A model generated the notes under the pieces. It made no database searches. It saw nothing but the letters and a program-made list of their open reading frames with translations, and was not told the origin of the DNA. The position numbers and the translations under genes were made by a program. Source: Candidatus Methanosuratincola sp. (lineage in GTDB: Archaea; Thermoproteota; Methanomethylicia; Methanomethylicales; Methanomethylicaceae). Taken from it: a DNA stretch of 59,735 nucleotides. Below, piece after piece: positions 8,279 to 24,062 of the stretch (within the stretch, counting starts at the first letter, position 1; each line of letters opens with the position of its first letter). The DNA is taken from assembly GCA_037478935.1 (NCBI GenBank), contig JBBFLR010000007.1:1-59735 (forward strand). The letters are read 5' to 3'.

Positions 8279-9826
8279 ATGGTATTGATCATTCCGATCT
8301 TCGAGATGCACCAGCCGAGGCGCCTCAAGAGGCAGTTCGGTAGGCCCATGCAACCCGGGACAAAGCTCGAAAACTTTTATTTCGATGACGATCTCAACAA
8401 GGAGACCTTCTTTCGCGTCTCCAGAGCCGCATATCAGCCAGCACTGGATTCAATCCTCGAATCCGTCGAGCAAAGAGGTTTCAAGTGTGCTATTTCCGTA
8501 TCAGGGACGCTTCTCGAGCAGGCTGCCGCGTGGGCACCCGAACTCGTGACCAAGTTAAGGGAGATCATCGAGACAGGATCCTGCGAGCTTATTGCCCAGC
8601 CGTACTACAGCTCGCTCTCATGCCTCTTCTCTCCCGAGGAGCTTGCCGCCCAGCTGGAGATGATGAGGATGGCTGCCGAGAAGCTCTTCAAGCGGAGCCC
8701 AAAAACAGCGAAGAACACGGGGCTGATCTCTAGGGAGGACGCATGGAAGGTGATCCGGGCTCTTGGGTTCAAGTCGGCTATCGTCGAAGGAACTGAGAGG
8801 CTGCTGGGGTTTAGGTCGCCGAACTGCCTCTATGCCTGGGCTGACGGTGGGCTTAAACTCCTCCCCAGGAACTATCCCCTCTCGGATATGGTGAATTTCA
8901 GATTCACTGAGTCTGGGCGTGACGGCGGGCCGCTCCAGCCATCCGAATTCCTGGACCTCGTCCTCTCGCAGAGGGACGATCTCGTGCTCCTTGGTCTCAA
9001 TCTGGAGGCATTTGGCGAGTACTTCGGGGAGCAGAGCGGCATCATGGAATTCCTCAAATCACTCCCGGAGGAAGCCGAGAAGAGGGAGGGGGCGATTTGG
9101 GCGACCCCCTCGCAGGCGGCTGAGGAACTCGATCACAAGGGAGAGCTGGAGGCAAAGGACTACTCTTCATGCGCGGACTCTGAGAAGGACCTTTCCGCTT
9201 GGACCGGGAACGAGCTGCAGCAGTACTGCCTGGAGAACCTGCGTTACCTCTACCCCATGGCCAAGAGGTCCGCAGAAGACCTGCGGGTGTGGAGGCTCCT
9301 TGGGCAGAGCGACAACTTCCTGTACATGAGCCGCAAGCGGGGCACGGAAGGCGAAATTCACTCCTACTTCTCGCACTTCAGCAGCCCTGTGGAGGCGTTC
9401 TCGACTTTTATGTGGACCCTCGCCGACTTCAGATCCAAGCTCTATGCCAAGCTCGGCGAAGAGGCGAGGTTGTACAGGATGCTCCACAGCGACCTCCCTG
9501 ATGCCCATGCCTTCCACTTCTATGCTGGGATGGGGAAGCCACTCGGAATCAAGGCAACAAATCTGACCTCGCTGAAGTGCGCAATCCAGTCGGTCGACGA
9601 GGCTTCCTTACGGTTCCACCTGTTTAGGGGGGACCTCAGGCGATGGGTCGGCGAGGTCTTGGGTCTCGCGAGCCTCGCGGAGGAGATGAGGCAGCTCGAG
9701 CGCGTCGCTGACGAGGGCGACTTGAAGGGAAGGGTTGCCAAGTCTGTATCGTCGGCAATTGAAGAGACACAGTCGCAACTTAACGCTGGGGGTGTAAAAT
9801 CTGCTAAGGCTGGAACGCTACGTTGA
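8279..9826 (+). CDS. GH57 alpha-amylase-like protein lacking both catalytic residues
   Basis: 515 residues resembling the MJ1611-type GH57 alpha-amylase group: N-terminal PIFEMHQP, the GSCELIAQPYYSSLS block and SPNCLYAWADGGLKLL. In active members the nucleophile Glu sits in an RNTEL motif and the acid/base Asp in DYETFGEH. Here the aligned segments read KNTGL (Gly148 for Glu) and NLEAFGEY (Asn241 for Asp). Both catalytic positions therefore appear lost, while the fold looks kept. It is probably a carbohydrate-binding or scaffolding pseudoenzyme, or has another chemistry. It is followed after 16 nt by the GalT-like gene on the same strand. The alignment is by eye. Confidence 0.85.
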   Translation: MVLIIPIFEMHQPRRLKRQFGRPMQPGTKLENFYFDDDLNKETFFRVSRAAYQPALDSILESVEQRGFKCAISVSGTLLEQAAAWAPELVTKLREIIETGSCELIAQPYYSSLSCLFSPEELAAQLEMMRMAAEKLFKRSPKTAKNTGLISREDAWKVIRALGFKSAIVEGTERLLGFRSPNCLYAWADGGLKLLPRNYPLSDMVNFRFTESGRDGGPLQPSEFLDLVLSQRDDLVLLGLNLEAFGEYFGEQSGIMEFLKSLPEEAEKREGAIWATPSQAAEELDHKGELEAKDYSSCADSEKDLSAWTGNELQQYCLENLRYLYPMAKRSAEDLRVWRLLGQSDNFLYMSRKRGTEGEIHSYFSHFSSPVEAFSTFMWTLADFRSKLYAKLGEEARLYRMLHSDLPDAHAFHFYAGMGKPLGIKATNLTSLKCAIQSVDEASLRFHLFRGDLRRWVGEVLGLASLAEEMRQLERVADEGDLKGRVAKSVSSAIEETQSQLNAGGVKSAKAGTLR

Positions 9827-9842
9827 GCACTCAGAGATCCTG

Positions 9843-10802
9843 ATGCCTGGCAGTGGGACAGCCGCATCCTGCGAGGTCGAGGTTCGCATCGATCCCATGA
9901 CTGGCGCAGCGACCAGGATAAACAGGGCCCGGCAGGGGAGGCCGAGGCAGCAGGAAGCGGCGCCTGTGCCCGAGATCGCGAAGGACTGCCCTTTCTGCCC
10001 CGAGAACCTTGAAGCCTCGACCCCTTCGTTCACTCCTGACTTCTGCAAATCAGGCAGGATCAGGGTTGGGAAAGCCGTAGTCTTCCCGAACATGTACCCG
10101 CTCTCCTCCCTGCACGGCGTGGTGGTCTTCACGCCCGAACATAAGCTGGAGATCGACGGATACAGCCGTGAGGAGCTTGCCGATGGGCTATTTGCATCCG
10201 CAACTTTCCTCCGCCTAGCCCACGAGAAGGGGCATCCTTACCACTTACTGGGATGGAATCACCTGAGCCAGGCAGGCGCTTCGATGCTGCACCCGCACTT
10301 CCAAGTTATTGCCGGCACGTCTCCCGTCTCGTCGCTTAGGGAATGCCTCATTACATGCCGGGAGTACCGAACCCGGGAGTCCCGGTCTTTCTGGGACGAC
10401 TTGCTGGAGTCGGAGAAAGGCTCTCCGAGGTACATCGGGAGGACCAGTGGTTTCTCCTGGATAGCGCCGTGGGCCCCTACCGGTGCATGCGAGGCGATCG
10501 GCGTCCTCGAAGAGAAAGCCGACTCGCTCCTCGAACTCCCGGAGGGGTGCATCATCGGTCTCGCAGACGGCATATCAAGGATCTTGAGGGGCTACTGGAA
10601 AATGGGTCTTAGGTCGGTAACGATGGGGGTTTTCTCCCTGCCCCCCGGGTCTGGGGAGGGCGCATTCAGGCTTCATGTGAGGATAATGGGCAGGTCCAGG
10701 CGGATAGGCTGCGACAGGGCCTTCCTCGAGCTGTACGGTTGGGAGGTCGGGCTTACTGAGTTCCCTGAGGAATATGCCGCTGCGCTAAGGGCCTTCTTCT
10801 GA
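9843..10802 (+). CDS. GalT-like hexose-1-phosphate nucleotidylyltransferase
   Basis: 319 residues of the HIT-superfamily galactose-1-phosphate uridylyltransferase type. A Zn pair CPFC is near residue 46, and the catalytic motif HPHFQ, whose second His would carry the nucleotidyl group, is near residue 149. The frame is open upstream without a stop to 9798, overlapping the previous gene, and the upstream translation (ERYVEHSEIL) looks protein-like, but no ATG, GTG or TTG start lies there, so ATG 9843 is used. In this glucan context it may act on glucose-1-phosphate, or work as an NDP-sugar phosphorylase, rather than in galactose use. It converges end to end with the ROK gene. Confidence 0.85.
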   Translation: MPGSGTAASCEVEVRIDPMTGAATRINRARQGRPRQQEAAPVPEIAKDCPFCPENLEASTPSFTPDFCKSGRIRVGKAVVFPNMYPLSSLHGVVVFTPEHKLEIDGYSREELADGLFASATFLRLAHEKGHPYHLLGWNHLSQAGASMLHPHFQVIAGTSPVSSLRECLITCREYRTRESRSFWDDLLESEKGSPRYIGRTSGFSWIAPWAPTGACEAIGVLEEKADSLLELPEGCIIGLADGISRILRGYWKMGLRSVTMGVFSLPPGSGEGAFRLHVRIMGRSRRIGCDRAFLELYGWEVGLTEFPEEYAAALRAFF

Positions 10803-11771
10803 TCATCCCAGCTGCGGGATCAGCTTGGATCGGTAAGAACCGAATGCCGAAAGAAGCGCTCCCACGAGGGGGGCATCCTCGCCCAGCCGGGTTAATTCCA
10901 CCAGGGGCGGAGAGTTGAAGCAGAGTTTCGGTAACAGTTCAGCGATGGGATCGACTGTCAAGGAAGGGTTCTTCAGCGCTAGCCCTCCCCCAACCGTGAT
11001 GATCTGCGGATCGTAAAGGTTGACGATGTTTGCGAATGCCCTCGCGTTAATCCCCGCCGCCTTCTCGATCACGTGCCTGGCGAAAGGATCCCCTCGATAA
11101 GCCGCGCCGAAGACCTCCTTTGCCCCAACCTCCTCCCGGCCTGCCTTCATCAACTCAGCGAGCCCGCTCGCGCCGGAAAAGCCCTTTAACAGGAACCTGG
11201 CATACTTGGGGATCCCGCTGCCCGAAGTGTATGCCTCCCAGTGCCCAAAACCGCCACAGTTGCATTCGAGCCTCTCCTCCATGTCGATTATCATGTGCCC
11301 GACCTCGTGGGCATTACCGTCCTTCCCGAGCAGTATCCTGCCGTCAACCATTATTCCTGCGCCGATCCCTGTGCCAATACCGACATAGACGATGTTCCCA
11401 GCCCCTTTGCCCGCTCCGATAACGCCCTCCGCCACGGCGGCTGCCACGCAGTCGTTGAGGACGACTGTCGGTTTCCCGATCTCTTCCTCAATCACATCCT
11501 TAAGCGGGACACTCATGAGAGAGGCATGGGGTGAGAACTCGATTGATCCCTTCCTTATGTCGAGCCTACCCGCCGCCCCAACCCCTATGCCTTCGACTTC
11601 GGCAACTCCAGAGGAGACCTCCTTGATTATCCCAATAGTCTGCGAGATGAACCGGTCCGAGCTACCTCGCACCACTCTTTGGACAGATTTCTTAAGTATC
11701 CTGCCCCCCCGGTCACCCAGGGCGGCCCTGATCCAGCTACCTCCTACGTCCAGTCCAACAGCGCACTTCAT
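10803..11771 (-). CDS. ROK family sugar kinase (glucokinase-like)
   Basis: 322 residues. The N-terminal phosphate motif is GLDVGGSWIRAALGDRGG; the second block is YVGIGTGIGAGIMVDG; the ROK signature with Zn ligands is HEVGHMIID...CNCGGFGHWEAYTSG. These support ATP-dependent phosphorylation of glucose or a related sugar. Regulator-type ROK proteins have an N-terminal winged helix, which is absent, so this is an enzyme. Its ATG overlaps the end of the glycosyltransferase gene by 4 nt, indicating translational coupling. It would feed hexose phosphates into the glucan genes around it. Confidence 0.92.
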   Translation of the reverse strand: MKCAVGLDVGGSWIRAALGDRGGRILKKSVQRVVRGSSDRFISQTIGIIKEVSSGVAEVEGIGVGAAGRLDIRKGSIEFSPHASLMSVPLKDVIEEEIGKPTVVLNDCVAAAVAEGVIGAGKGAGNIVYVGIGTGIGAGIMVDGRILLGKDGNAHEVGHMIIDMEERLECNCGGFGHWEAYTSGSGIPKYARFLLKGFSGASGLAELMKAGREEVGAKEVFGAAYRGDPFARHVIEKAAGINARAFANIVNLYDPQIITVGGGLALKNPSLTVDPIAELLPKLCFNSPPLVELTRLGEDAPLVGALLSAFGSYRSKLIPQLG

Positions 11772-12940
11772 CTGATGCCCGCCTTCGGCTTCCAGTCGTT
11801 GGCATTGTACTCGTCCAGCACTCTCTTGTACAGCTCGAGGGTCTGCTCAGCGGTATTGCTCCAGGAGAACTCGTTTGCCCTCGACTTGGCATTCACCACC
11901 AGCCTCGCCTTCAACCCTTCATTATGGAGTACCCTGGTGATCGCCTTTGCCAGATCCTCTGCTGAGCCGGATTGGAACTTTATTCCATCTTTTCCGTCCG
12001 TTACTATTTCGTCTAGCCCTCCGGTGTTCGAGACGATCACAGGGATCCCGAGCGACATTGCCTCGAGCACCACGATCCCAAAGGGCTCGTATAGGCTGGG
12101 TATCACAAGCACCGACGCCTCCTCGTAAATTGAGAGCAGGGTCTCGTCGTCCACATGACCCAGGAAGCTTACCTTATCGCCAAGGTTCAGTTTCCTGGCA
12201 AGCCCTTCAAGGTAAGGCCTCATCGCGCCGTCGCCCACTATAATCACTCTGAGGCCCTCTTCTTCCCTCAAAAGGCTGGCCGCCTCCACCAGCAGGTGGG
12301 GGCCTTTCTCGTAGACTAGCCTCCCGACAAAGAGCACGGTCTTTCCTGATTTTCTCCCCGGCTCCGCGTTCTTCGCTTTAGCCATCTTGGGGTCATAACC
12401 GTTGTGGATTACGGAGATCTTGTCGGCTGGGCACCCTAGACTTGAGTGGACCTCCTTCATCATGTACTTGCTGCAGCATATCACCCTCCAAGCCTCGAAT
12501 GCGAGCCACCACTCCATCTCATGGATATGTCTTTCGCTGTCGTTTGTGAGGACCTTCCTCCTTCCGATCTCCGTCGCATGGATCGTCGCCACGAGGGGGC
12601 GCCTCCACATGTGCTTTAACGCGATCCCCGAGTACGCTGTCAGCCAGTCGTGGACATGTATGAGGTCAAAGCTCCCCAGATCGGCTGCCCTCTCGACCAT
12701 CAACATGTTCAGACCTTCGATCCAGGATACGAAGTCTGGATAACGCAGCACATAGGGGTTAACCCTCACGATCTCCACGCCCTCCGACCTCTCCTGCTTC
12801 TTGGAGGTGCCGTCGGTGAAGCTGAGGACCGTCACCTCTGCGCCCTTTGACGCCAGGTGCACTGAAAGGTTGTAGACGTGCCTGCCCAACCCCCCGACTA
12901 TGTGGGGCGGGTACTCCCACGTTATCTCTAGGATCCTCAG
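11768..12940 (-). CDS. GT4 glycosyltransferase (glycogen synthase-like), probable CTG start
   Basis: About 390 residues with a complete GT-B fold: donor-side motif FVGRLVYEKGPH and EPFGIVVLE with the conserved Glu pair. Starting at the first common start codon (TTG 12889) would begin inside the glycine-rich acceptor loop. The frame upstream reads LRILEITWEYPPHIVGGLGRHV, the family's standard N terminus, beginning with CTG at 12940 that overlaps the TGA of the preceding gene as CTGA. I therefore extend it there. It likely transfers glucose from an NDP-glucose to a glucan or to glucose-1-phosphate (GlgM-like). Operon: winged-helix protein, half GT, this gene, ROK kinase. Confidence 0.88.
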   Translation of the reverse strand: MRILEITWEYPPHIVGGLGRHVYNLSVHLASKGAEVTVLSFTDGTSKKQERSEGVEIVRVNPYVLRYPDFVSWIEGLNMLMVERAADLGSFDLIHVHDWLTAYSGIALKHMWRRPLVATIHATEIGRRKVLTNDSERHIHEMEWWLAFEAWRVICCSKYMMKEVHSSLGCPADKISVIHNGYDPKMAKAKNAEPGRKSGKTVLFVGRLVYEKGPHLLVEAASLLREEEGLRVIIVGDGAMRPYLEGLARKLNLGDKVSFLGHVDDETLLSIYEEASVLVIPSLYEPFGIVVLEAMSLGIPVIVSNTGGLDEIVTDGKDGIKFQSGSAEDLAKAITRVLHNEGLKARLVVNAKSRANEFSWSNTAEQTLELYKRVLDEYNANDWKPKAGIR

Positions 12941-13524
12941 TCCCTGAGCCCCCTGTATGCGTCGACTATTCCCTCGGCGCTACTCGCAGAGACTATCTTG
13001 TCCCGACTAACCCCGTAATTCTCTGCGAGGTGATCGCCCATTCCGCCAGACTTTACTATTAAAAGGTCGGACTTGCTGAAACAGTGCCGTTCGATGTCGA
13101 ATATGCCCATGTTGAGAAGCGAGCCAAGTACCTTTGACCTGGTCAGTTCGGTGGTGTACACTGAGGTAACCAGTGGCATCCTGAAGCAGGACTTCAGGTA
13201 GACCCCTGTGATGCTGCTCACCCAGTCATGAGTATGCACCAAAGGGACATCCCCTTCCTCGTGGATCGCCGCTGCTGCCCCCCTCAGGAGGTCGATATTG
13301 AGCGTATGTATGTACGCCAATATGTGGGGGCTGGTCCTGACAGAGGACGCGAACTTGAAAAGCCGCATCCCGTCGATCTCGGCCACCTCGTCCCTATCTC
13401 CCCTGACCACCAGTATTGTCCTTACCTTCCTGGCTATCTCTGGGAGGAGCGATTTCAGCTCCTGAGAGAGCCCCCCGACGACCCAGGGCGGGTATTCCCA
13501 ACTTATGTGCATTACCGGCTTCAT
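12937..13524 (-). CDS. Stand-alone N-terminal half of a GT4 glycosyltransferase
   Basis: 195 residues that match only the acceptor (N-terminal) domain of GT4/GT5 enzymes: start MKPVMHISWEYPPWVVGGL, then LVHTHDWVSSITGVYLK. The protein ends where the linker to the donor-binding domain would begin, and no donor-domain motif (such as EPFGxxxLE) exists downstream in any frame before the next complete GT gene. The frame is intact, so it looks like a maintained half-domain, not a frameshifted gene. It may have arisen by tandem duplication of its neighbour, and could pair with it or be an acceptor-binding regulator. Function unknown. Confidence 0.82.
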   Translation of the reverse strand: MKPVMHISWEYPPWVVGGLSQELKSLLPEIARKVRTILVVRGDRDEVAEIDGMRLFKFASSVRTSPHILAYIHTLNIDLLRGAAAAIHEEGDVPLVHTHDWVSSITGVYLKSCFRMPLVTSVYTTELTRSKVLGSLLNMGIFDIERHCFSKSDLLIVKSGGMGDHLAENYGVSRDKIVSASSAEGIVDAYRGLRD

Positions 13525-13852: not shown

Positions 13853-15778
13853 CTATTCGGGCTTGAGATACAGCACTCCGAGCGGCGGCAGGGTCAAGGA
13901 CAGCGAATGCCTGCGTCCGTGGGACTCGACCTCCTCCGACTCCACGCCCCCGAAGTTCCCCCATCCTGAACCGCCGTAGGGTACTGCATCGCTGTTGAGA
14001 AGTTCGCGCCATCTCCCGCTTCTTTCGACTCCTACCCGGTATCTTTCCCTTGGCACGGGGGTGAAGTTGCACACAACTAGCACAACATCATCGGAGCTGC
14101 CCTTTCTCTCAAAGCTTATTACGCTCTGCTCGTAGTCCCTGAAGTCAACCCACTCGAACCCTGATTGATCGAAGTCAAGCTCGTACAGGGCCCTCTCCGA
14201 CATGTAAGTCGAGTTCAGGTCCTCCACCCACCTCCTCACCCCGGCATGCATGGGTTCTGAGAGGAGGTGCCAGTCGAGAGCCCTTTCGTGGTACCACTCG
14301 TTTCTCTGCCCGAATTCCCCTCCCATGAAGATCAGCTTCTTACCGGGGTGGGCATACATGTACCCGAGCAACAGCCTGAGGTTGGCGAACTTCTGCCAGT
14401 CGTCACCGGGCATCTTCCCTAGGAGAGACCGCTTCCCGTAGACAACTTCGTCGTGTGAGAGGGGAAGCACGAAATTCTCAGAGAATGCATACCATATGCT
14501 GAATGTAATCTCGTTATGGTGGTATTTCCTGAATATCGGATCCTTGGAGAAGTAATCGAGCGTGTCGTGCATCCAACCCATGTTCCACTTCATGCCGAAG
14601 CCGAGGCCTCCTGAGTAGGTCGGCCTGGATACCATGGGCCAAGCCGTAGACTCTTCCGCTATCATTTGGACATCAGGGCACTCCCTGTAAACCGTCTCGT
14701 TCAGGTCCCTGATGAATGATATGGCCTCGAGATTCTCCCTCCCTCCATGCTCGTTCGGGACCCATTCCCCCTCCCTCCTCGAGTAGTCGAGGTACAGCAT
14801 TGAAGCCACAGCGTCAACCCTCAACCCGTCCGCATGGTACTTGTCCAGCCAGAAGACCGCGCTGCTCATCAGGAAAGACCTGACCTCGTTCTTCCCGTAA
14901 TCAAAGATGTAACTCCTCCAGTCCGGGTGCCACCTCTTCCTCGGGTCCTCATACTCGTACAGGTGCGTGCCGTCGAAGTACCCGATCCCATGCGCATCGG
15001 TCGGGAAGTGCGAGGGAACCCAATCCAAGTAAACCCCCCTCCCTGACTGGTGCACCTGGTCGATAAGCCGCATCAGCCCTTGGGGCTCCCCGTACCTCGC
15101 CGTCGGCGCGAAATAACCTGTGGTCTGGTATCCCCATGAACCGTAGAACGGGTGCTCCATTACCGGCAGCAGCTCGATATGGGTGAACCCCGCCCCCTGC
15201 AGGTACTTCGGGATCTCCTCCGACATTTCGGCATAGCTGAGCCAGGCGCCATCCCCCTTCCTCCTCCAAGACCCCAGGTGGCACTCGTATATCGATATCG
15301 GTGAATTGAGCGAGTTGTGTTTCCCCCTTGTCCTCATCCATTCCCCGTCCGACCAGCCATACTCCAAGTCCCAGACGACCGAGGCTGTGGCAGGGGGTGT
15401 TTCTGATCTGAAGGCGAAGGGATCTGCCTTGTCGAAGCAACGCCCATCCCTGCATACGATCCTGTACTTGTAGAGCGCCCCCCTGCCGACCCCGGGCAGG
15501 AACCCTTCCCATATCCCGGAGCCGTCTGCCCTCGGGAAGAGCTTGTGATCGGGCTTCCATCCGTTGAAGTCTCCGATCACATAGACGCTGCCAGCGTTAG
15601 GGGCCCATACCCCGAACTGGACGCCCTCCTCCCCGTCCACCTCTGCTAGGTGGGCCCCGAGCTTTTCATAAAGCCTGCAGTGCTTGCCACGCCTAAAGAG
15701 GTAGACGTCGAAATCGGTGAGGGCCGCATGGGGTATAACCTGTCCGGGCACGCCTCTTTCAACTCTCTCGGGACTCAT
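13853..15778 (-). CDS. glgB: 1,4-alpha-glucan branching enzyme (GH13)
   Basis: 641 residues. An N-terminal CBM48-like domain ([20 protein letters not shown]) precedes the GH13 barrel and a C-terminal beta domain. Catalytic motifs are present: [11 protein letters not shown] (nucleophile Asp), MIAEESTAW (acid/base Glu) and LPLSHDEVV (third Asp). It forms alpha-1,6 branches in glycogen. The frame opens at TTG 15808, overlapping the upstream gene, but ATG 15778 has AAAGGT about 7 nt before it and leaves a 16-nt gap, so it is chosen. It follows the TreS-maltokinase gene in one operon, the classic partner arrangement for the maltose-1-phosphate glycogen route. Confidence 0.97.
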
Positions 15779-15794
15779 AGAATTACCTTTGATA

Positions 15795-18700
15795 TCATAT
15801 AATGTCAAGTATGCCTTTTATTGGGATCCATGCCATCTCCGGTCTGTTGTTTACCTCGTACTCCAGTTCGTAAAATGCCTTCTCGAGCATAAACGCTTCA
15901 ATCAGGATCTTGAGGCTATCCCTATCCTCCGGTACGAGATCCGTTTCTTTCACTCTTGAGATATACTCCTTTAGGAAAACCTTGGCGCAGCACATGTACC
16001 ACAGTTTTGCCCAGCCTTCGAGGAATCCTTTATCGGCGGTAGCGGGATCCTTCTGGGTGCCTGCCAGTCCGGTGTACGCAACGTAGTGCAGCGACCTGAG
16101 CATCCCCGCCACATCGACCAGAGGCGACTTCTTTATCCTCCTCTCGCTCAATGCCTTGGTGGGCTCACCCTCAAAATCAATTATCATTAGGTCATCCCCG
16201 GTGAATAGCACCTGCTGCAGATGGTAGTCTCCATGGATCCTTCCTCTCAGAGCATTTAGCCTCAACTGCCTTAAGCGCCTCAACTTTTCGTCGATCTTAG
16301 CCTGACGTTCGAGTACCGATTCGAAGTCTATCCTTTCTTTTTCCTTCAAGGATGACCTTATCTTAGGCGTCCTCAGGATGCGCCTGATGTAGCTGGACAG
16401 CCCTTGGTACAGGGAGAACTGGTAAAGATAATTGAATCTCTCAGGCATGAATTCGGGGTCCTCTCCCTTCATGAAAAGGGAAATGTGCATCTCCGCGGTC
16501 CTCAAAGCGAGAATTCTCAGCATCTCGAGCGTCCGCGACCCAATCAGCCCGGCAAGCTCTTCTGGCACAGGATCGTCCCCGAACAAGTCTAACGATGAAG
16601 CTACTTCCTTGGGTCGGACGGCTAATATGCGGGCGTAGTATCCCTCGAGCTCCCTCAGGAGCAGACCCCAGAAGTCCCCCTCGTTCGGTACGTACTCCTG
16701 AAGCGAAGCGATGATTACAGGCTCTCCTCCCCTCTCTTGGTATGTGATGTACCCGAGCAGGTCAGGGGCATTCGGGAATGAGGGGTTATTCAGGTGATCC
16801 AATATCTCGACTTCCGGGTTTTTGCCCTCCTCGGCCTTCCGATAGATCTTCAGCAGAGCCCGGCCGCCATATATGATTGACGTATTGCGGAGATCCAGGA
16901 GCGGTTTGATCGAGAGCTCTTCGGGTTTCAAGCCTTTAAGCTCCTTAAAGCTATCCCTAACGGTGACCCTGATCTCGGCGCTCTTGCTCTTCAGGACCTT
17001 CCTCCTCATTACCATTGAAAACATCGACTTGGCAAACGAACCGGTAGCCGAAGCATCGCATAGTATGCCTTCCTCCAGACCCGCCTTTACCTTCGCTAGG
17101 ATGAAGTCCTGTGCCATTTCCGAGATCTCGCGCCTTTCCCTGGGATCGTTGATGTAGATGAGAGGCAAAACATAGGATTCAGGAAGGCCCTGCGAGTAGA
17201 AGACGTCGATTATCGCTACACCTTCAAACCTATGCACACCATCTTCGAAATGGATCATGTCTCTCACTCTTATCCTGTCTATTTCCCTGTTTTTGCCCAC
17301 AAACCATTTCTGCCCCACCAAGAACGCAGGCAGAACTTCTGTCTCAAGCTTTTCAAGTACTCCCCTCGAACCTAGCTCTCTCGGCTCCTTTACCGCAATC
17401 TCAGTCTTTGTAACTATTGGCCTCGTCTCCTCCTTTGAGAGCGAAAAGACATAGTACCCGTATGAGTCAAAAGTCAAAACGTAGCCTGATTTGCCTATCA
17501 TGGGGAACTTGGCATTTCCCAGGATCTCCTTGGGCGTCTGCCCTTCATAGCCAGAGAGATCGAGCTCAGCGACTTGGGGCTTCTTCGAGAGGTTAGCGGC
17601 TACCAACACTCTCTCGTCGCGGTATTTCCTTATGAACGCAAGGATTCTGCTGTTCTCCGGATAGAGGAACTCGATCTCGCCTCTGCCGAATGCCTTGAAA
17701 TGCTTTCTGACGTTTATCATCCTCTTCATCCACCAGAAGAGGGAGGACTGGCTCTTCTTCTGGTTCTCCACATTGACTGCCTCGTAGTGGTACTCTGGGT
17801 CCACTATAACGGGAAGGTGGAGCCTTTGGGGGTTTGCCTTCGAGAACCCCGCATTCAACTCCGAGGACCACTGCATCGGCGTCCTAACACCGTTCCTGTC
17901 TCCTAGGTAGAAGTTGTCGCCCATCCCGATCTCGTCGCCGTAGTAGATCACCGGGGTGCCGGGCAGCGTGAGCAGGAGAAGGTTCATGAGTTCGATCTTC
18001 CTCCGGTCGTTGTCCATCAGCGGGGCGAGCCTCCTCCTGATCCCAAGGTTTATCCTCGCCAGCTTGTTGTTGGCATAGACCCTGTACATATAGTCCCGCT
18101 CCTCGTCGGTCACCATCTCGAGTGTAAGCTCATCGTGGTTCCTGAGGAAGAGCGCCCACTGGCACCCGTCCGGGATCCCCAATGAGCTCTCGAGTATATC
18201 CACGATCGGAAACCTGTCTTCGATGAAAATCGCCATGTACATCCTTGGCATTAACGGAAAGTGGAATGCCATGTGGCACTCGTCACCCTCCCCGAAGTAC
18301 ATCATTGCGTCGGAGTGCCACTGGTTGGCCTCGGCTAGAAGCATCCTTCCTTTGAACTTGGAGTCGACATGTCTTCTCAATTCCTTAAGGAATTGGTGGG
18401 TCTCGGGCAAGTTCTCGCAGTTCGTCCCTTCCCTCTCGAAGAGGTAGGGCACCGCATCCAGCCTCAGGCCGTCCACCCCCAGTTCGAGCCAGAAGTCCAC
18501 CACCTCGAAGATCCTCTTCTTGACCTCTTCGTTGTCGTAGTTGAGGTCTGGCTGGTGGGAATAGAACCTGTGCCAGTAGTACTCCCCTGCGACTGGGTCG
18601 AATGTCCAATTCGAGGATTCGAAGTCTTTGAAGATTATCCTCGCTTCCCCGTACTTGCTTGGATCGCTGCTCCAAACGTAGTAATCCCTCTTGGGGGAGC

Positions 18701-19121
18701 CTTTTTTGGCCCTCCTCGCAGCCTGGAACCACGGGTGCTGGTCTGAAGTGTGGTTGAGGACGAGCTCGGTTATTATTTTTATACCCCTTTCATGCGCAGC
18801 CTTCACAAACTCTCTAAAGTCCTTCAGCGTTCCATATCTCGGATCAACCCCGAAGTAGTCCGATATGTCGTAACCGTCGTCCTTCATTGGTGATGGATAG
18901 AAAGGAAGTATCCAGATCGCGGTGACGCCGAGGTCTTTGAGGTAATCCAGCTTCTTTGTGAGTCCCTTGAAGTCCCCGATTCCGTCACCGTTGCTGTCGA
19001 AGAAGGACCTCACGTGGAGCTCATAAATTATTGCATCCTTGTACCAAAGCTCATTGCTCTCTCCACTATTTTCCATGGTTCCAGCAACAACCTGCTTTGA
19101 ATCAGTAGCCTCGGTCACCAA
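15795..19121 (-). CDS. Trehalose synthase-maltokinase fusion (TreS-Mak/Pep2)
   Basis: 1108 residues. The first about 550 form a GH13_16 trehalose synthase: [32 protein letters not shown] (nucleophile Asp), [11 protein letters not shown] (Glu) and [11 protein letters not shown] (Asp). The rest is a kinase-like maltokinase domain with [12 protein letters not shown] and MIIDFEGEP holding the catalytic and Mg-binding Asp. TreS interconverts maltose and trehalose; maltokinase makes maltose-1-phosphate for GlgE. No GlgE is in the window. Start is uncertain: TTG 19121, GTG 19118 or ATG 19076; a TATA-like AATATTAAAA at 19133-19142 lies so close to 19121 that ATG 19076 is quite possible. Confidence 0.96.
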
Positions 19122-19992: not shown

Positions 19993-21504
19993 TCACTGGC
20001 ATCTGGATCTTCCAGACTCCTTCGTGACGAGGGCGAACTCTTCGAGCCTTTCATTGCTTAGTCCTTCCCTCATCCTCCAGAGATAATTGTTCAGGGGGGA
20101 AGAGGGTACGTTCAGTCTTGCCTCGCTCCCGAGGTTCAGGACATCCTGTATCGGGACAATGCAGAGCCTTGATCCAGACATCATCGACAGTTTTATCAAC
20201 TCGGCGCTCACCTCCTCCTCCCCGACCCTCCTGCCGAGATACCTGAAGAGGTTCTCCCTGACTTCCTGCGTCGCCTCCTCCATGAACCAGCCCTTGACCG
20301 TGTTCGTGTCGTGGGTACCTGTGTACGAGACCGAGTTGAACCCGTGGTTCTCCGGAAGGTAGGGGTTGTCGGGCTTTCCGTCAAAAGCGAAGATGAGGAC
20401 TTTCATGCCTGGGATCCCTAGGTTCTTTATAGCGGCCTTTACGTCGTCTGTTATCACTCCCAAGTCTTCGGCAACGAAAGGCAATGAGGGGAAACTCCCC
20501 CTCAAAGCCCCAAAGAACTCGTCTGAGGGAACCTTCACCCACCTGCCGTTCATGGCAGTCCTCTCTGAAGCAGGGACCTCCCAATATGCCAGTAACCCCC
20601 TGAAGTGGTCGATCCTGACCAGGTCGAACATCTCAACATTGTGCTTTATCCTGCGCATCCACCACTCGAACCCCGTCTCCCTGTGCCTGTCCCAGTCATA
20701 AACTGGGTGCCCCCAAAGCTGCCCAGTCTCGCTGAAGTAGTCTGGAGGGACCCCGCTGACGAAGAGAGCCCTGCCTGTGCTGTCGAGCTTGAACAGCCCT
20801 GGGCTGGTCCAGACATCGACACTGTCGTGGCTCACATAGAAGGGGAGGTCGCCGAATATCCGGATCCCCTTTCTCTTGCAGTGTTCTTTCAGACGCGACC
20901 ACTGCCAGTATGCGATGTACTGCACGAACCTATGGAATTCTGTCCCCTCGAGCCTTCTCTTGGCAGAGGCGAGCTCTTCAGGCTCTCTCCTCCTCAGCCC
21001 CTCAGGCCAGAGATACCAGGGCATTCCGGACCCCTCCTTGAGCGCAGTGAAGACTGCATAGTCATCAAGCCAAGACGCATTCCGGTCGCAGAACCCCTCG
21101 TAATTGCCTGAAAAGTCACCCTTTTTTCTCGAGAACCCTTTGAACGCTTTCTTAAGGATCTCAAGCTTTGCGGATTGGACTGCCCTGTAATTGATCCTGT
21201 CGCTCTCGGGAACCCTGATCGAGTCCAGCGCCGTTTCTTCAAGAAGCCCGTCGGCTGCGAGCATCTCCGGGCTTATGAGCAGCGGATTCAGCGCGAAGCC
21301 AGAGCTGGAGATATACGGCGAATTCCCGCACTCAGGGCTGGTCGGGTTCAGCGGCAGTAGCTGCCAGTAGCTTTGCCCGGTCTCTGCCAAGAGGTCCACG
21401 AATCTGTATGCCTGCGGTCCAAAGTCGCCTATCCCGTAGTCTGAAGGGAGGCAGGTCGGATGAAGCAGTATTCCGCTCGCCCGGTTTCTGGATACAAGAT
21501 CCAA
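19993..21504 (-). CDS. malQ: 4-alpha-glucanotransferase (amylomaltase, GH77)
   Basis: 503 residues, typical GH77 length. Landmarks: ASGILLHPTCLPSDYGIGDFGP at the N terminus, GDLPFYVSHDSVDVW, VRIDHFRG (nucleophile Asp), VAEDLGVIT (acid/base Glu) and YTGTHDTNTVKGW (third Asp). It moves alpha-1,4-glucan segments between chains and releases glucose, which the ROK kinase could phosphorylate. TTG start at 21504, 13 nt after the stop of the large GH57 gene on the same strand, so the two are probably one operon. All catalytic residues are intact. Confidence 0.97.
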   Translation of the reverse strand: MDLVSRNRASGILLHPTCLPSDYGIGDFGPQAYRFVDLLAETGQSYWQLLPLNPTSPECGNSPYISSSGFALNPLLISPEMLAADGLLEETALDSIRVPESDRINYRAVQSAKLEILKKAFKGFSRKKGDFSGNYEGFCDRNASWLDDYAVFTALKEGSGMPWYLWPEGLRRREPEELASAKRRLEGTEFHRFVQYIAYWQWSRLKEHCKRKGIRIFGDLPFYVSHDSVDVWTSPGLFKLDSTGRALFVSGVPPDYFSETGQLWGHPVYDWDRHRETGFEWWMRRIKHNVEMFDLVRIDHFRGLLAYWEVPASERTAMNGRWVKVPSDEFFGALRGSFPSLPFVAEDLGVITDDVKAAIKNLGIPGMKVLIFAFDGKPDNPYLPENHGFNSVSYTGTHDTNTVKGWFMEEATQEVRENLFRYLGRRVGEEEVSAELIKLSMMSGSRLCIVPIQDVLNLGSEARLNVPSSPLNNYLWRMREGLSNERLEEFALVTKESGRSRCQ

Positions 21505-21517
21505 TTACACCACTCCT

Positions 21518-23938
21518 TCAGACTTTTATGCCCAATAGCTCGGCGAGGGACTTTTGCCTCTCCAGCCATCTCCCTGCGCTGGAGTCGCCAGAAGCCTCCC
21601 TTGCCTTCATGTATCCCTGCCATCTCGACATGATCTTGAAGAGCAGATTCTGCGCGAGCCAGTAGTTGATCTCTAGCTGCAGCCTCTCCACAGACCTGAG
21701 GAGCCTCTCAAGCCTCTCCATGCGTCCCAGGTCCTCGGGGACCTCAGCCAGCCGCTCCAGTTCGCGCTCAATACGTCTCTTAGCCTCCAGGCCTATCAGG
21801 CCTTTGTCGAGCTCGATCTGAAGGCTCAGTGCTTCTTCGGTGAGCTTCTCGAAGATCCTTGGGTCTGTACCTTCGCCCCTTAAAGCCTCAATTATGTTGT
21901 AGGTCAAAACCACTTCGGCTGCCGCCCTGAGCGCGATTGGCACCTTCAGCGAGAGCCCCCTCATAAATGTCATTACTGCCAGGTTGTCCTCATAGACCTG
22001 CTGGAAGTTCGACCTGGACCTGCCCACCGAGGCCTCGAGGATCCTCTCGAGGACCTCGATCTGCCTGTCCTTGAACAAGTCCGAAAGCGAACAAGAACAC
22101 CCCTCTTTACCGAAATTGAGATCGATCAGGCTTATCGCCCTCTGGACGTCCCCTGCCTTTATCGCGCTGTGCAGCCCTTTCTGCGCCTCGAAGAATTCCT
22201 CTTCGCCCATGCGCCTCCTGACGCCACCGAATATGTTGTGGTCACCCAGCCACAGGGCAGCATACCAGATCTCGTCCTCCTCTAGCGTCATTGCCGAAGT
22301 AACCCTAGAATTCCCTGTCACTAGCACGTTCTTCCCCACCTTCTGCCGTTCGTACGTTTTGTCTTCGACGAAGTAGCAGTACACCCTGTGCGGGCCTCCC
22401 TTCTCTCCATTGAATATCGAGGATATTGCGTGGTGTATCCCGACGCGCGGAAGTTCGACCTTGGCCGGTCTGACGAAGTTCTCGTAAATCTTAGCTCCGT
22501 CCCCGAGCGTGCTGTAGTTGCTCTTAGCAGCCCGGAGCTTTTCAAGGTACTCTGGCTCGAGGTCCTTGCCCGTGACCTCCCTCAAGAGCTGAATTACCCT
22601 GGCTGCATGCCTCATGATCTGGACGGTCTCTATTCTTGACACGTCGTCGAAGAACCATCCGCAGCTGGTCTGCATGAGCATCGAATGCCGCTGCATTTCG
22701 AGCAACTTGAGTATTTTTACCCTGTCCTCCTTAACGAGATCCCTCCTGAATCCCCTTCTCCTGAAGAAGAGGTCTATGTTCTCCGGCGATCGGTCCAACA
22801 CAACGGATACGTACTCGTCCCTGTCCTCCCACGGTTTTCCGGAATACCTCCTCATCTCGGTCTCGAAAACCTCGGCTGCCCTGTCCCTCAGCCAGTCCAT
22901 CGCATCCCTTAGCGGTCTCCTCCACCTCTGGAGGGGGCAGACCCCTGTCTTGCAGCCGCATTCATCCATCCAGCGCTCGACGCCGTGCTCGCAGCTCCAA
23001 GAGGTCCTCTCAGCGATCTCGACCTCGTCCTCCGGCGGGCTGAGCTCTAGGTACTCCCCAAAGTTGGTTATCCTAGCAAGGCTGTTTGACTTGATGTAGT
23101 GCAGGCAGTAGGAGAGCGCCATCTCGCCGAATTTGTGGTGGTGCCCATAGGTTTCCCCGTCAGTTGCGACGCTCACGAGCTGGTTCCCGCCATAGTCTGC
23201 GAACTCCGACAGCATCCTCTTCGCAAAGGTCTCGCCGTCATTGAGAAGCCCGCCGAACGCCACCTCCTTCGAGATCGACTCGTTGTAGAAGAAGATGCTG
23301 ATATCCCTGCCGGAGGGGAGCCTGCACAGATAGGGACGTTTGGTGTCAAGCGCCTCTTTATGCACCTCCTTCCATTCGCCGCCCCTCTTAACCCTCCTCG
23401 CCTGGTGCGGCGCGAGGATCGTGAACTTGATCCCCTCTTGTGCGAGGATCTCGAGAGTTTGCGTGTCCACTGCTGTCTCGGGGAGCCACATCCCCTCCGG
23501 CTCCCTCCTGAACCTTGCCTTGAAATCGGCTATTCCCCACCTGATCTGGGTTATCTTGTCTCTCTGGCTCGCGAGCGGCATTATCATGTGGTTGTATGCC
23601 TGCGCAATCGCGGAGCCGTGCCCAGAGAATTCCTTCCTGCTCCTCATGTCCGCCTCCAATATCGCCTCATACGTCTCCTGCGCGTTCGTCTCCATCCATG
23701 AGAGAATCGTCGGTCCGAAGTTGAAGCTGATCATCGAATAGTTGTTCACAATATCGACTATCCTTCGGTCAGGCCCGATGATCCTTGAAGCAGTGTTGGG
23801 TGCGTAGCACTCTGCAGTCACCCTCTGGTTCCAGTCGTGGTAAGGGTGGGCAGATTCTTGGAGCTCGATCCCTTCGAGCCATGGGTTCTCCCGCGGCGGC
23901 TGGTAGAAATGCCCGTGGATGCAGACAAACCTCTCCAA
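21518..23938 (-). CDS. Large GH57 glycoside hydrolase with DUF3536 domain
   Basis: About 806 residues. The N-terminal GH57 barrel starts CIHGHFYQPPRENPW; GMWLPETAVD carries the nucleophile Glu and SVATDGETYGHHH the acid/base Asp, so it looks active, unlike the GH57-like protein at 8279. The C-terminal DUF3536 region is helical with a long coiled stretch. The frame runs back to 24001, but a minus-strand TATA (TTTTTATATT near 23976-23985) lies inside that extension, so I place the start at TTG 23938, which has GGTG 7 nt upstream and yields the family's normal N terminus. It likely hydrolyses or rearranges alpha-glucan. Confidence 0.93.
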   Translation of the reverse strand: MERFVCIHGHFYQPPRENPWLEGIELQESAHPYHDWNQRVTAECYAPNTASRIIGPDRRIVDIVNNYSMISFNFGPTILSWMETNAQETYEAILEADMRSRKEFSGHGSAIAQAYNHMIMPLASQRDKITQIRWGIADFKARFRREPEGMWLPETAVDTQTLEILAQEGIKFTILAPHQARRVKRGGEWKEVHKEALDTKRPYLCRLPSGRDISIFFYNESISKEVAFGGLLNDGETFAKRMLSEFADYGGNQLVSVATDGETYGHHHKFGEMALSYCLHYIKSNSLARITNFGEYLELSPPEDEVEIAERTSWSCEHGVERWMDECGCKTGVCPLQRWRRPLRDAMDWLRDRAAEVFETEMRRYSGKPWEDRDEYVSVVLDRSPENIDLFFRRRGFRRDLVKEDRVKILKLLEMQRHSMLMQTSCGWFFDDVSRIETVQIMRHAARVIQLLREVTGKDLEPEYLEKLRAAKSNYSTLGDGAKIYENFVRPAKVELPRVGIHHAISSIFNGEKGGPHRVYCYFVEDKTYERQKVGKNVLVTGNSRVTSAMTLEEDEIWYAALWLGDHNIFGGVRRRMGEEEFFEAQKGLHSAIKAGDVQRAISLIDLNFGKEGCSCSLSDLFKDRQIEVLERILEASVGRSRSNFQQVYEDNLAVMTFMRGLSLKVPIALRAAAEVVLTYNIIEALRGEGTDPRIFEKLTEEALSLQIELDKGLIGLEAKRRIERELERLAEVPEDLGRMERLERLLRSVERLQLEINYWLAQNLLFKIMSRWQGYMKAREASGDSSAGRWLERQKSLAELLGIKV

Positions 23939-23975
23939 ATGGTGACACCAGCGCTCCTGAATCACTTTTCTAGAT

Positions 23976-23985
23976 TCTGAATATA
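23976..23985 (-). promoter_or_regulatory. TATA box of the GH57-malQ operon
   Basis: TTTTTATATT on the minus strand, about 40 nt before the TTG at 23938. It decides the choice of start for the GH57 gene. Confidence 0.5.
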
Positions 23986-24062
23986 AAAATACCCGGGGCA
24001 AATCCCTGCGAATCGGCGCATGATCGCTACTTATTTAACCTACCTGATCTCTAATTACCCGG

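Follow-up and report, generated by a model that had tools for sequence, protein, structure and literature searches.

A GH57 amylase-like protein of Methanomethylicaceae with both catalytic residues replaced and a probable accessory role in alpha-glucan metabolism

Why would a methanogenic archaeon keep an amylase-family protein in which both catalytic residues have been replaced, and what might such a protein do? The question is raised by an open reading frame (ORF) in a window of 59,735 nucleotides (the whole stretch of DNA analyzed here) of Candidatus Methanosuratincola sp. (family Methanomethylicaceae, phylum Thermoproteota), which is part of a 1.52-Mb assembly of 37 contigs; a cultured relative is Methanosuratincola petrocarbonis (PMC12244365). 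The ORF and its elements discussed below are as follows (window positions).

8279..9826, + strand: predicted GH57 pseudoenzyme of the AAMY (MJ1611) type, 515 aa (PF03065, E = 1.2e-54; tree; AlphaFold and Foldseek)
8303..8317, + strand: conserved region 1, E9-M-H11-Q12-P13, retained (alignments)
8720..8722, + strand: codon ggg of Gly148, at the nucleophile (Glu) position (alignments, AlphaFold model)
8999..9001, + strand: codon aat of Asn241, at the acid/base (Asp) position (alignments, AlphaFold model)
9476..9793, + strand: DUF5752/OrfY-like domain, residues ~400 to 505 (PF19027 on the isolated domain; profile A3)

The frame starts with ATG and translates through 515 codons with no internal stop. 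The Pfam Glyco_hydro_57 profile (PF03065) aligns to residues 7 to 290 across practically its entire length (profile positions 3 to 288 of 291; E = 1.2e-54), and no NCBIfam model matches. An AlphaFold model built from a 35-row alignment has a mean pLDDT of 91.4, a pTM of 0.89, and an intact barrel, and its best Foldseek matches are the Thermococcus litoralis 4-alpha-glucanotransferase, GH57 branching enzymes, and the Aquifex amylopullulanase (E values down to 4e-13). The protein thus belongs to GH57 both by descent and by its incomplete beta/alpha barrel fold. In a tree computed without MJ1611 itself, it lies inside a 19-row clade (support, 98) with intact copies from the same family, whose AAMY label derives from their conserved-region motifs. 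MJ1611-type archaeal alpha-amylases (AAMY) are the closest known proteins by sequence; they are similar in length, share the same conserved regions, and in relatives of the window are encoded at GT4-linked loci, whereas in the protein studied here the catalytic pair and several residues of the cleft are replaced. Conserved region 1 illustrates what is kept: H11, Q12, and P13 are present in every copy of the window's genus (g1), and E9 is invariant in alignment A1.

Gly148 sits in the motif KNTGLI and Asn241 in GLNLEAFGEY, which correspond to positions 15 and 20 of the GH57 conserved-region logo, those of the nucleophile and the proton donor, in a published survey (PMC6037648). At exactly these two columns, Glu and Asp occur in 96 of 114 GH57 homologs from this and other lineages. 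The 18 exceptions comprise 11 copies from Methanomethylicaceae (nine complete, two partial), five Bacteroidales proteins in which only the Asp is changed (to Asn), and two from Thermofilales (Tyr/Pro). A second alignment with further copies from across the phylum has Glu and Asp at both columns in 62 of 79 rows. In the AlphaFold model, strand beta4 spans residues 143 to 145, with residue 148 just after it, and beta7 spans residues 235 to 241, with residue 241 at its end; this placement puts the two residues at the GH57 catalytic sites. Active GH57 enzymes carry a Glu after beta4 and an Asp at beta7, and here Gly148 and Asn241 stand in their stead. The claim of an earlier note on this DNA, that both catalytic residues are replaced, is therefore borne out by the two alignments and the model. 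A search for substitute catalytic acids across the alignment of copies with both residues replaced (hereafter, dead copies) found no newly fixed acidic residue; the invariant residues specific to these copies are G148, N206, Y316, Y323, Q343, I360, and W379. Sequencing or frame error was ruled out, as the same residues occur in six genomes. Judged from sequence, the protein has very probably lost hydrolase and transferase activity. Replacements at these positions were also encountered elsewhere. Five Bacteroidales AAMY GH57 loci (L075, L092, L098, L103, and L132) encode proteins with the acid/base Asp changed to Asn and the Glu kept. An independent dead GH57 lineage is present in Thermofilales and in a related family (f33), where an intact AAMY GH57 gene is convergent to a second GH57 gene with Glu changed to Tyr and Asp to Pro (L058:2183-3292, - strand; L063:1779-4595, - strand; L181 to L185). 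Its L063 member has a 580-aa N-terminal part with no Pfam, NCBIfam, or PDB sequence match, and the open frame of L184 is similarly long.

The statement that the rest of the fold is kept at full length held for the fold but not for the active-site cleft, where H111, D204, W214, W227, T244, H248, W250, and W298 are replaced. Among 64 columns conserved in at least 93% of the intact copies, 45 keep their residue in each of the six copies from the window's genus and 19 do not, the latter including H111, E148, D204, W214, W227, D241, T244, H248, and W298; W250 is gone as well. Four tryptophans and two histidines of the cleft region that are invariant or nearly so among intact relatives are thereby absent from the genus; their cleft-lining role is deduced from their position in or beside conserved regions. 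Their loss makes glucan binding in the ancestral mode doubtful. H11, Q12, P13, E103, D203, R208, E243, and E247 are retained in the genus, and H11, E103, D203, R208, E243, and E247 may support some other cleft chemistry. A kept fold with a rebuilt cleft suggests that the protein is more than a dead enzyme with old-style glucan binding.

Dead copies, nine in number, occur in two sister genera of Methanomethylicaceae: every copy assembled from the window's genus, and each of three from the sister genus, has Gly at the nucleophile position and Asn or Ser at the acid/base position. Within the window's genus, Gly and Asn are fixed throughout, and every assembled copy is full-length. In the tree, the nine placeable dead copies group together (support, 100), with intact copies from the family as their neighbors (joint clade support, 98); the dead clade branches basally, which may reflect its long branch. 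The two genera with dead copies are also neighbors in a tree of five linked genes, so that one duplication and one loss in their ancestor give the simplest account. Intact copies are found in related genera of the family, and one genome of the sister genus (G008) has both kinds on separate contigs, the intact copy with GalT and GT4 genes as neighbors and the dead copy with those for ROK, GH13 branching enzyme, and TreS, as expected if duplication was followed by specialization. Pairwise dN/dS values among six genomes of the window's genus are 0.15 to 0.21 for the dead GH57, comparable to those of the neighboring GalT and ROK genes (0.12 to 0.21 for each), which marks it as a functional protein. 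A gene decaying toward loss is thus highly improbable: the most that speaks for it is that one relative (G010) lost most of the gene through an in-frame deletion, and it is contradicted by the dN/dS of ~0.15 to 0.21, the full length of all assembled copies in the genus, and the fixed Gly and Asn. What is left in G010 is a 96-codon open frame (L161:6251-6538, + strand), directly upstream of GalT, in which the two terminal parts of the GH57 gene are fused in frame.

The gene lies beside sugar-storage genes, and its locus has the following components.

9843..10802, + strand: GalT-like nucleotidyltransferase, 17 bases downstream of the GH57 gene (weak PRK11720 match, motifs, linkage in relatives)
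10803..11771, - strand: ROK-family sugar kinase (PF00480, E = 1.3e-51)
11768..12889, - strand: GT4 glycosyltransferase, glycogen-synthase-like (PF00534; TIGR02149 below cutoff)
12937..13524, - strand: N-terminal half of a GT4-type glycosyltransferase, encoded alone (matched by N-terminal GT domain profiles only)
13853..15808, - strand: GH13 1,4-alpha-glucan branching enzyme (TIGR01515 above cutoff)
15795..19121, - strand: trehalose synthase-maltokinase fusion (TIGR02456 and TIGR02457 above cutoff)
19993..21504, - strand: 4-alpha-glucanotransferase (MalQ, GH77; TIGR00217 above cutoff)
21518..24001, - strand: second GH57, DUF3536 type, with Glu (WLPE) and Asp (TDGE) motifs intact (motif reading)

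The GalT-like neighbor proposed earlier is real: its HPH and CPFC (CxxC) motifs are intact, and HPH and CxxC occur in all copies checked. The order homoserine dehydrogenase-GH57-GalT-ROK-GT4-GT4 N-terminal half is held wherever the locus is assembled in the window's genus, most genomes of which add the GH13 branching enzyme, TreS-maltokinase, MalQ, and the DUF3536-type GH57 with intact motifs. Since the intact GH57 of other genera also adjoins GalT, this adjacency is older than the catalytic loss. The stand-alone GT4 half is conserved beside a full-length GT4 from the window's genus to other families of the phylum (L034, L036 to L038, L041, L044, L045, L047, L050, L051, L161, and L162) and is possibly a second noncatalytic partner. 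A conserved protein of 657 to 697 aa is encoded in glycogen clusters with an intact GH57 (L044:1933-3903, L047:1316-3406, and L050:6076-8121, all on the - strand); Pfam searches with all three, NCBIfam searches with two of the three, and a PDB sequence search with one gave no match. A GH15 glucoamylase, a neighbor of MJ1611, was ruled out as a partner, being absent from 61 relatives.

Within the family, the catalytic GH57 is lost only in genomes with the bacterial-type GH13 branching-enzyme gene set. All nine genomes without the GH13 branching enzyme and MalQ (G009, G011 to G013, G015 to G017, G019, and G021) have an intact GH57. Eleven carry the GH13 gene and have their GH57 locus assembled, nine of them with a dead copy only, G008 with both copies, and G010 with the 96-codon stub (Fisher P = 1e-4 before allowing for kinship). 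One genome (G001) was left undecided because its contig ends inside GalT, and two of the nine with only a dead copy are 89% (G018) and 78% (G014) complete, so that an intact copy may be missed there. Across the phylum, an intact GH57 occurs in 2 of 12 genomes with a GH13 branching enzyme and in ~150 of 287 without one, the latter mostly assumed intact from the copies read (P = 0.018 without kinship correction); this wider link is only suggestive. A GH57-type branching enzyme (BE_C) was sought in 61 relatives, and none was found. A review (PMC11046441) points out that glycogen is made in TACK archaea although no branching enzyme is known there; it asks whether the AAMY GH57 fills the gap and cites a strongly reduced glycogen content in a Sulfolobus GH57-amylase null mutant. 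The link between GH57 loss and GH13 makes this question testable with two proteins from one organism. Two GH13 genes of the window's relatives are themselves damaged, each adjacent to an intact frame of the dead GH57: that of G005 (L034:13617-15605, - strand) has two single-base indels, with TreS missing at the locus, and that of G003 (L036:13268-15327, - strand) is frameshifted by a 13-base deletion.

We favor, as the probable explanation, a noncatalytic accessory or regulatory protein of alpha-glucan metabolism. Under this model, an AAMY-type alpha-glucan enzyme would have been duplicated, both catalytic residues lost once in the ancestor of the two sister genera, and the noncatalytic copy retained by selection. 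Its GH57 barrel, with the remodeled cleft, might sense or hold a glucan or sugar ligand, so that the protein would act as a regulator or subunit, and contacts with partner enzymes could run through its DUF5752 domain or its surface. The likeliest partners would be the products of the co-kept genes, namely, the GalT-like protein, the ROK kinase, and the GT4 synthase. Confidence in an accessory or regulatory role is moderate, and the case for particular partners and ligand is weak. The earlier suggestion of a glycogen-binding scaffold or regulator survives in its regulatory or accessory half, which is the best reading, but glycogen binding through the old cleft is disfavored with four Trp and two His gone. 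Against an accessory role stand the presence of DUF5752 in intact relatives as well and the loss of the conserved cleft Trp and His residues. That selection keeps a dead enzyme beside the sugar-storage genes of a methanogenic archaeon suggests a helper or regulatory role.

The same observations admit two other explanations. The remodeled cleft might have taken up new chemistry, with a nucleotide sugar, sugar phosphate, or sugar as substrate; it would draw on residues still in place, H11, E103, D203, E243, and E247 among them, with GalT perhaps as a pathway partner. The invariance of many polar cleft residues, the strong purifying selection, and the close GalT linkage all fit such a repurposed enzyme; we nevertheless regard it as unlikely, for the retained acidic residues are those that intact enzymes keep besides the catalytic pair, no new acidic residue has been fixed, and GalT is linked equally to the intact GH57 of other genera. 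Somewhat less remote, though still doubtful, is that the AAMY GH57 is the missing TACK branching enzyme and became dispensable once GH13 was gained, which would add a cause of catalytic loss to the accessory role and leave the protein a structural place in a glycogen-synthase complex. The intact copy in nine of nine genomes without GH13 but in 1 of 11 with it, together with the missing-enzyme question and the low-glycogen Sulfolobus mutant (PMC11046441), speaks for such a retirement. G008 and G227, however, carry an intact GH57 alongside a GH13 branching enzyme, G003 and G005 keep the dead GH57 with a frameshifted GH13, and the independent events are few; moreover, MalQ and TreS are also part of the acquired set, so an activity other than branching may have been the one replaced. 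Extended tentatively, the same idea would make Methanomethylicaceae a natural replacement experiment in which, after the GH13 gain, one lineage turned GH57 into a selected noncatalytic partner of GT4 and GalT and another deleted it. A dead GH57 serving as a dedicated partner of the GH13 branching enzyme or TreS was considered and found unlikely: GH13 is frameshifted in G005 and G003, the G005 locus is without TreS, and the dead GH57 is conserved. A broken GH13 beside a full-length dead GH57 makes GalT, ROK, or GT4 the more likely partners of the favored accessory protein.

Noncatalytic GH57 "AAMY-like" proteins, archaeal members among them, are already described in PMC6037648, in agreement with the earlier note's statement that such proteins had been reported. 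We compared the present proteins with them by that paper's definition, which they fit in having the catalytic residues replaced. The present proteins stand apart as a clade confined to one lineage, in which Gly replaces the Glu and Asn or Ser the Asp, many cleft residues are lost, and the locus is linked to GalT; one relative also has an intact paralog. Added here are this clade, compared with the published AAMY-like set by definition only, its two paralogs in one genome, and its association with the GH13 gene set. The surveys found in our literature search list noncatalytic GH57 proteins, and no assigned role was found. The plant isoamylase ISA2, which binds ISA1 (PMC12510319), is likewise a noncatalytic paralog of a glucan enzyme kept by selection; it belongs to a different family (GH13), and the analogy is one of working only. 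ISA2 and the AAMY-like proteins serve as precedents for the accessory reading. The GH57 clade offers a clean setting, with a single origin, an intact sister-genus paralog, strong selection, and a defined locus.

The C-terminal domain scores 23.8 bits against PF19027 (DUF5752; cutoff, 23) in isolation and 21.9, below the cutoff, within the whole protein. A 24-row profile of the domain (A3) matches OrfY (PDB code 4cso; E = 1.4e-17) twice along its chain; OrfY, which is without a GH57 barrel, was named a transcription factor by its depositors, which favors the accessory or regulatory reading, and our literature search on OrfY and DUF5752 found no paper. Because intact relatives also have the domain, its presence alone cannot account for the dead clade. 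Stand-alone DUF5752 proteins of ~120 aa, homologous to the GH57 C terminus, are encoded at three further loci in relatives (L163:1404-1754, + strand; L164:5037-5405, - strand; L165:4039-4395, - strand).
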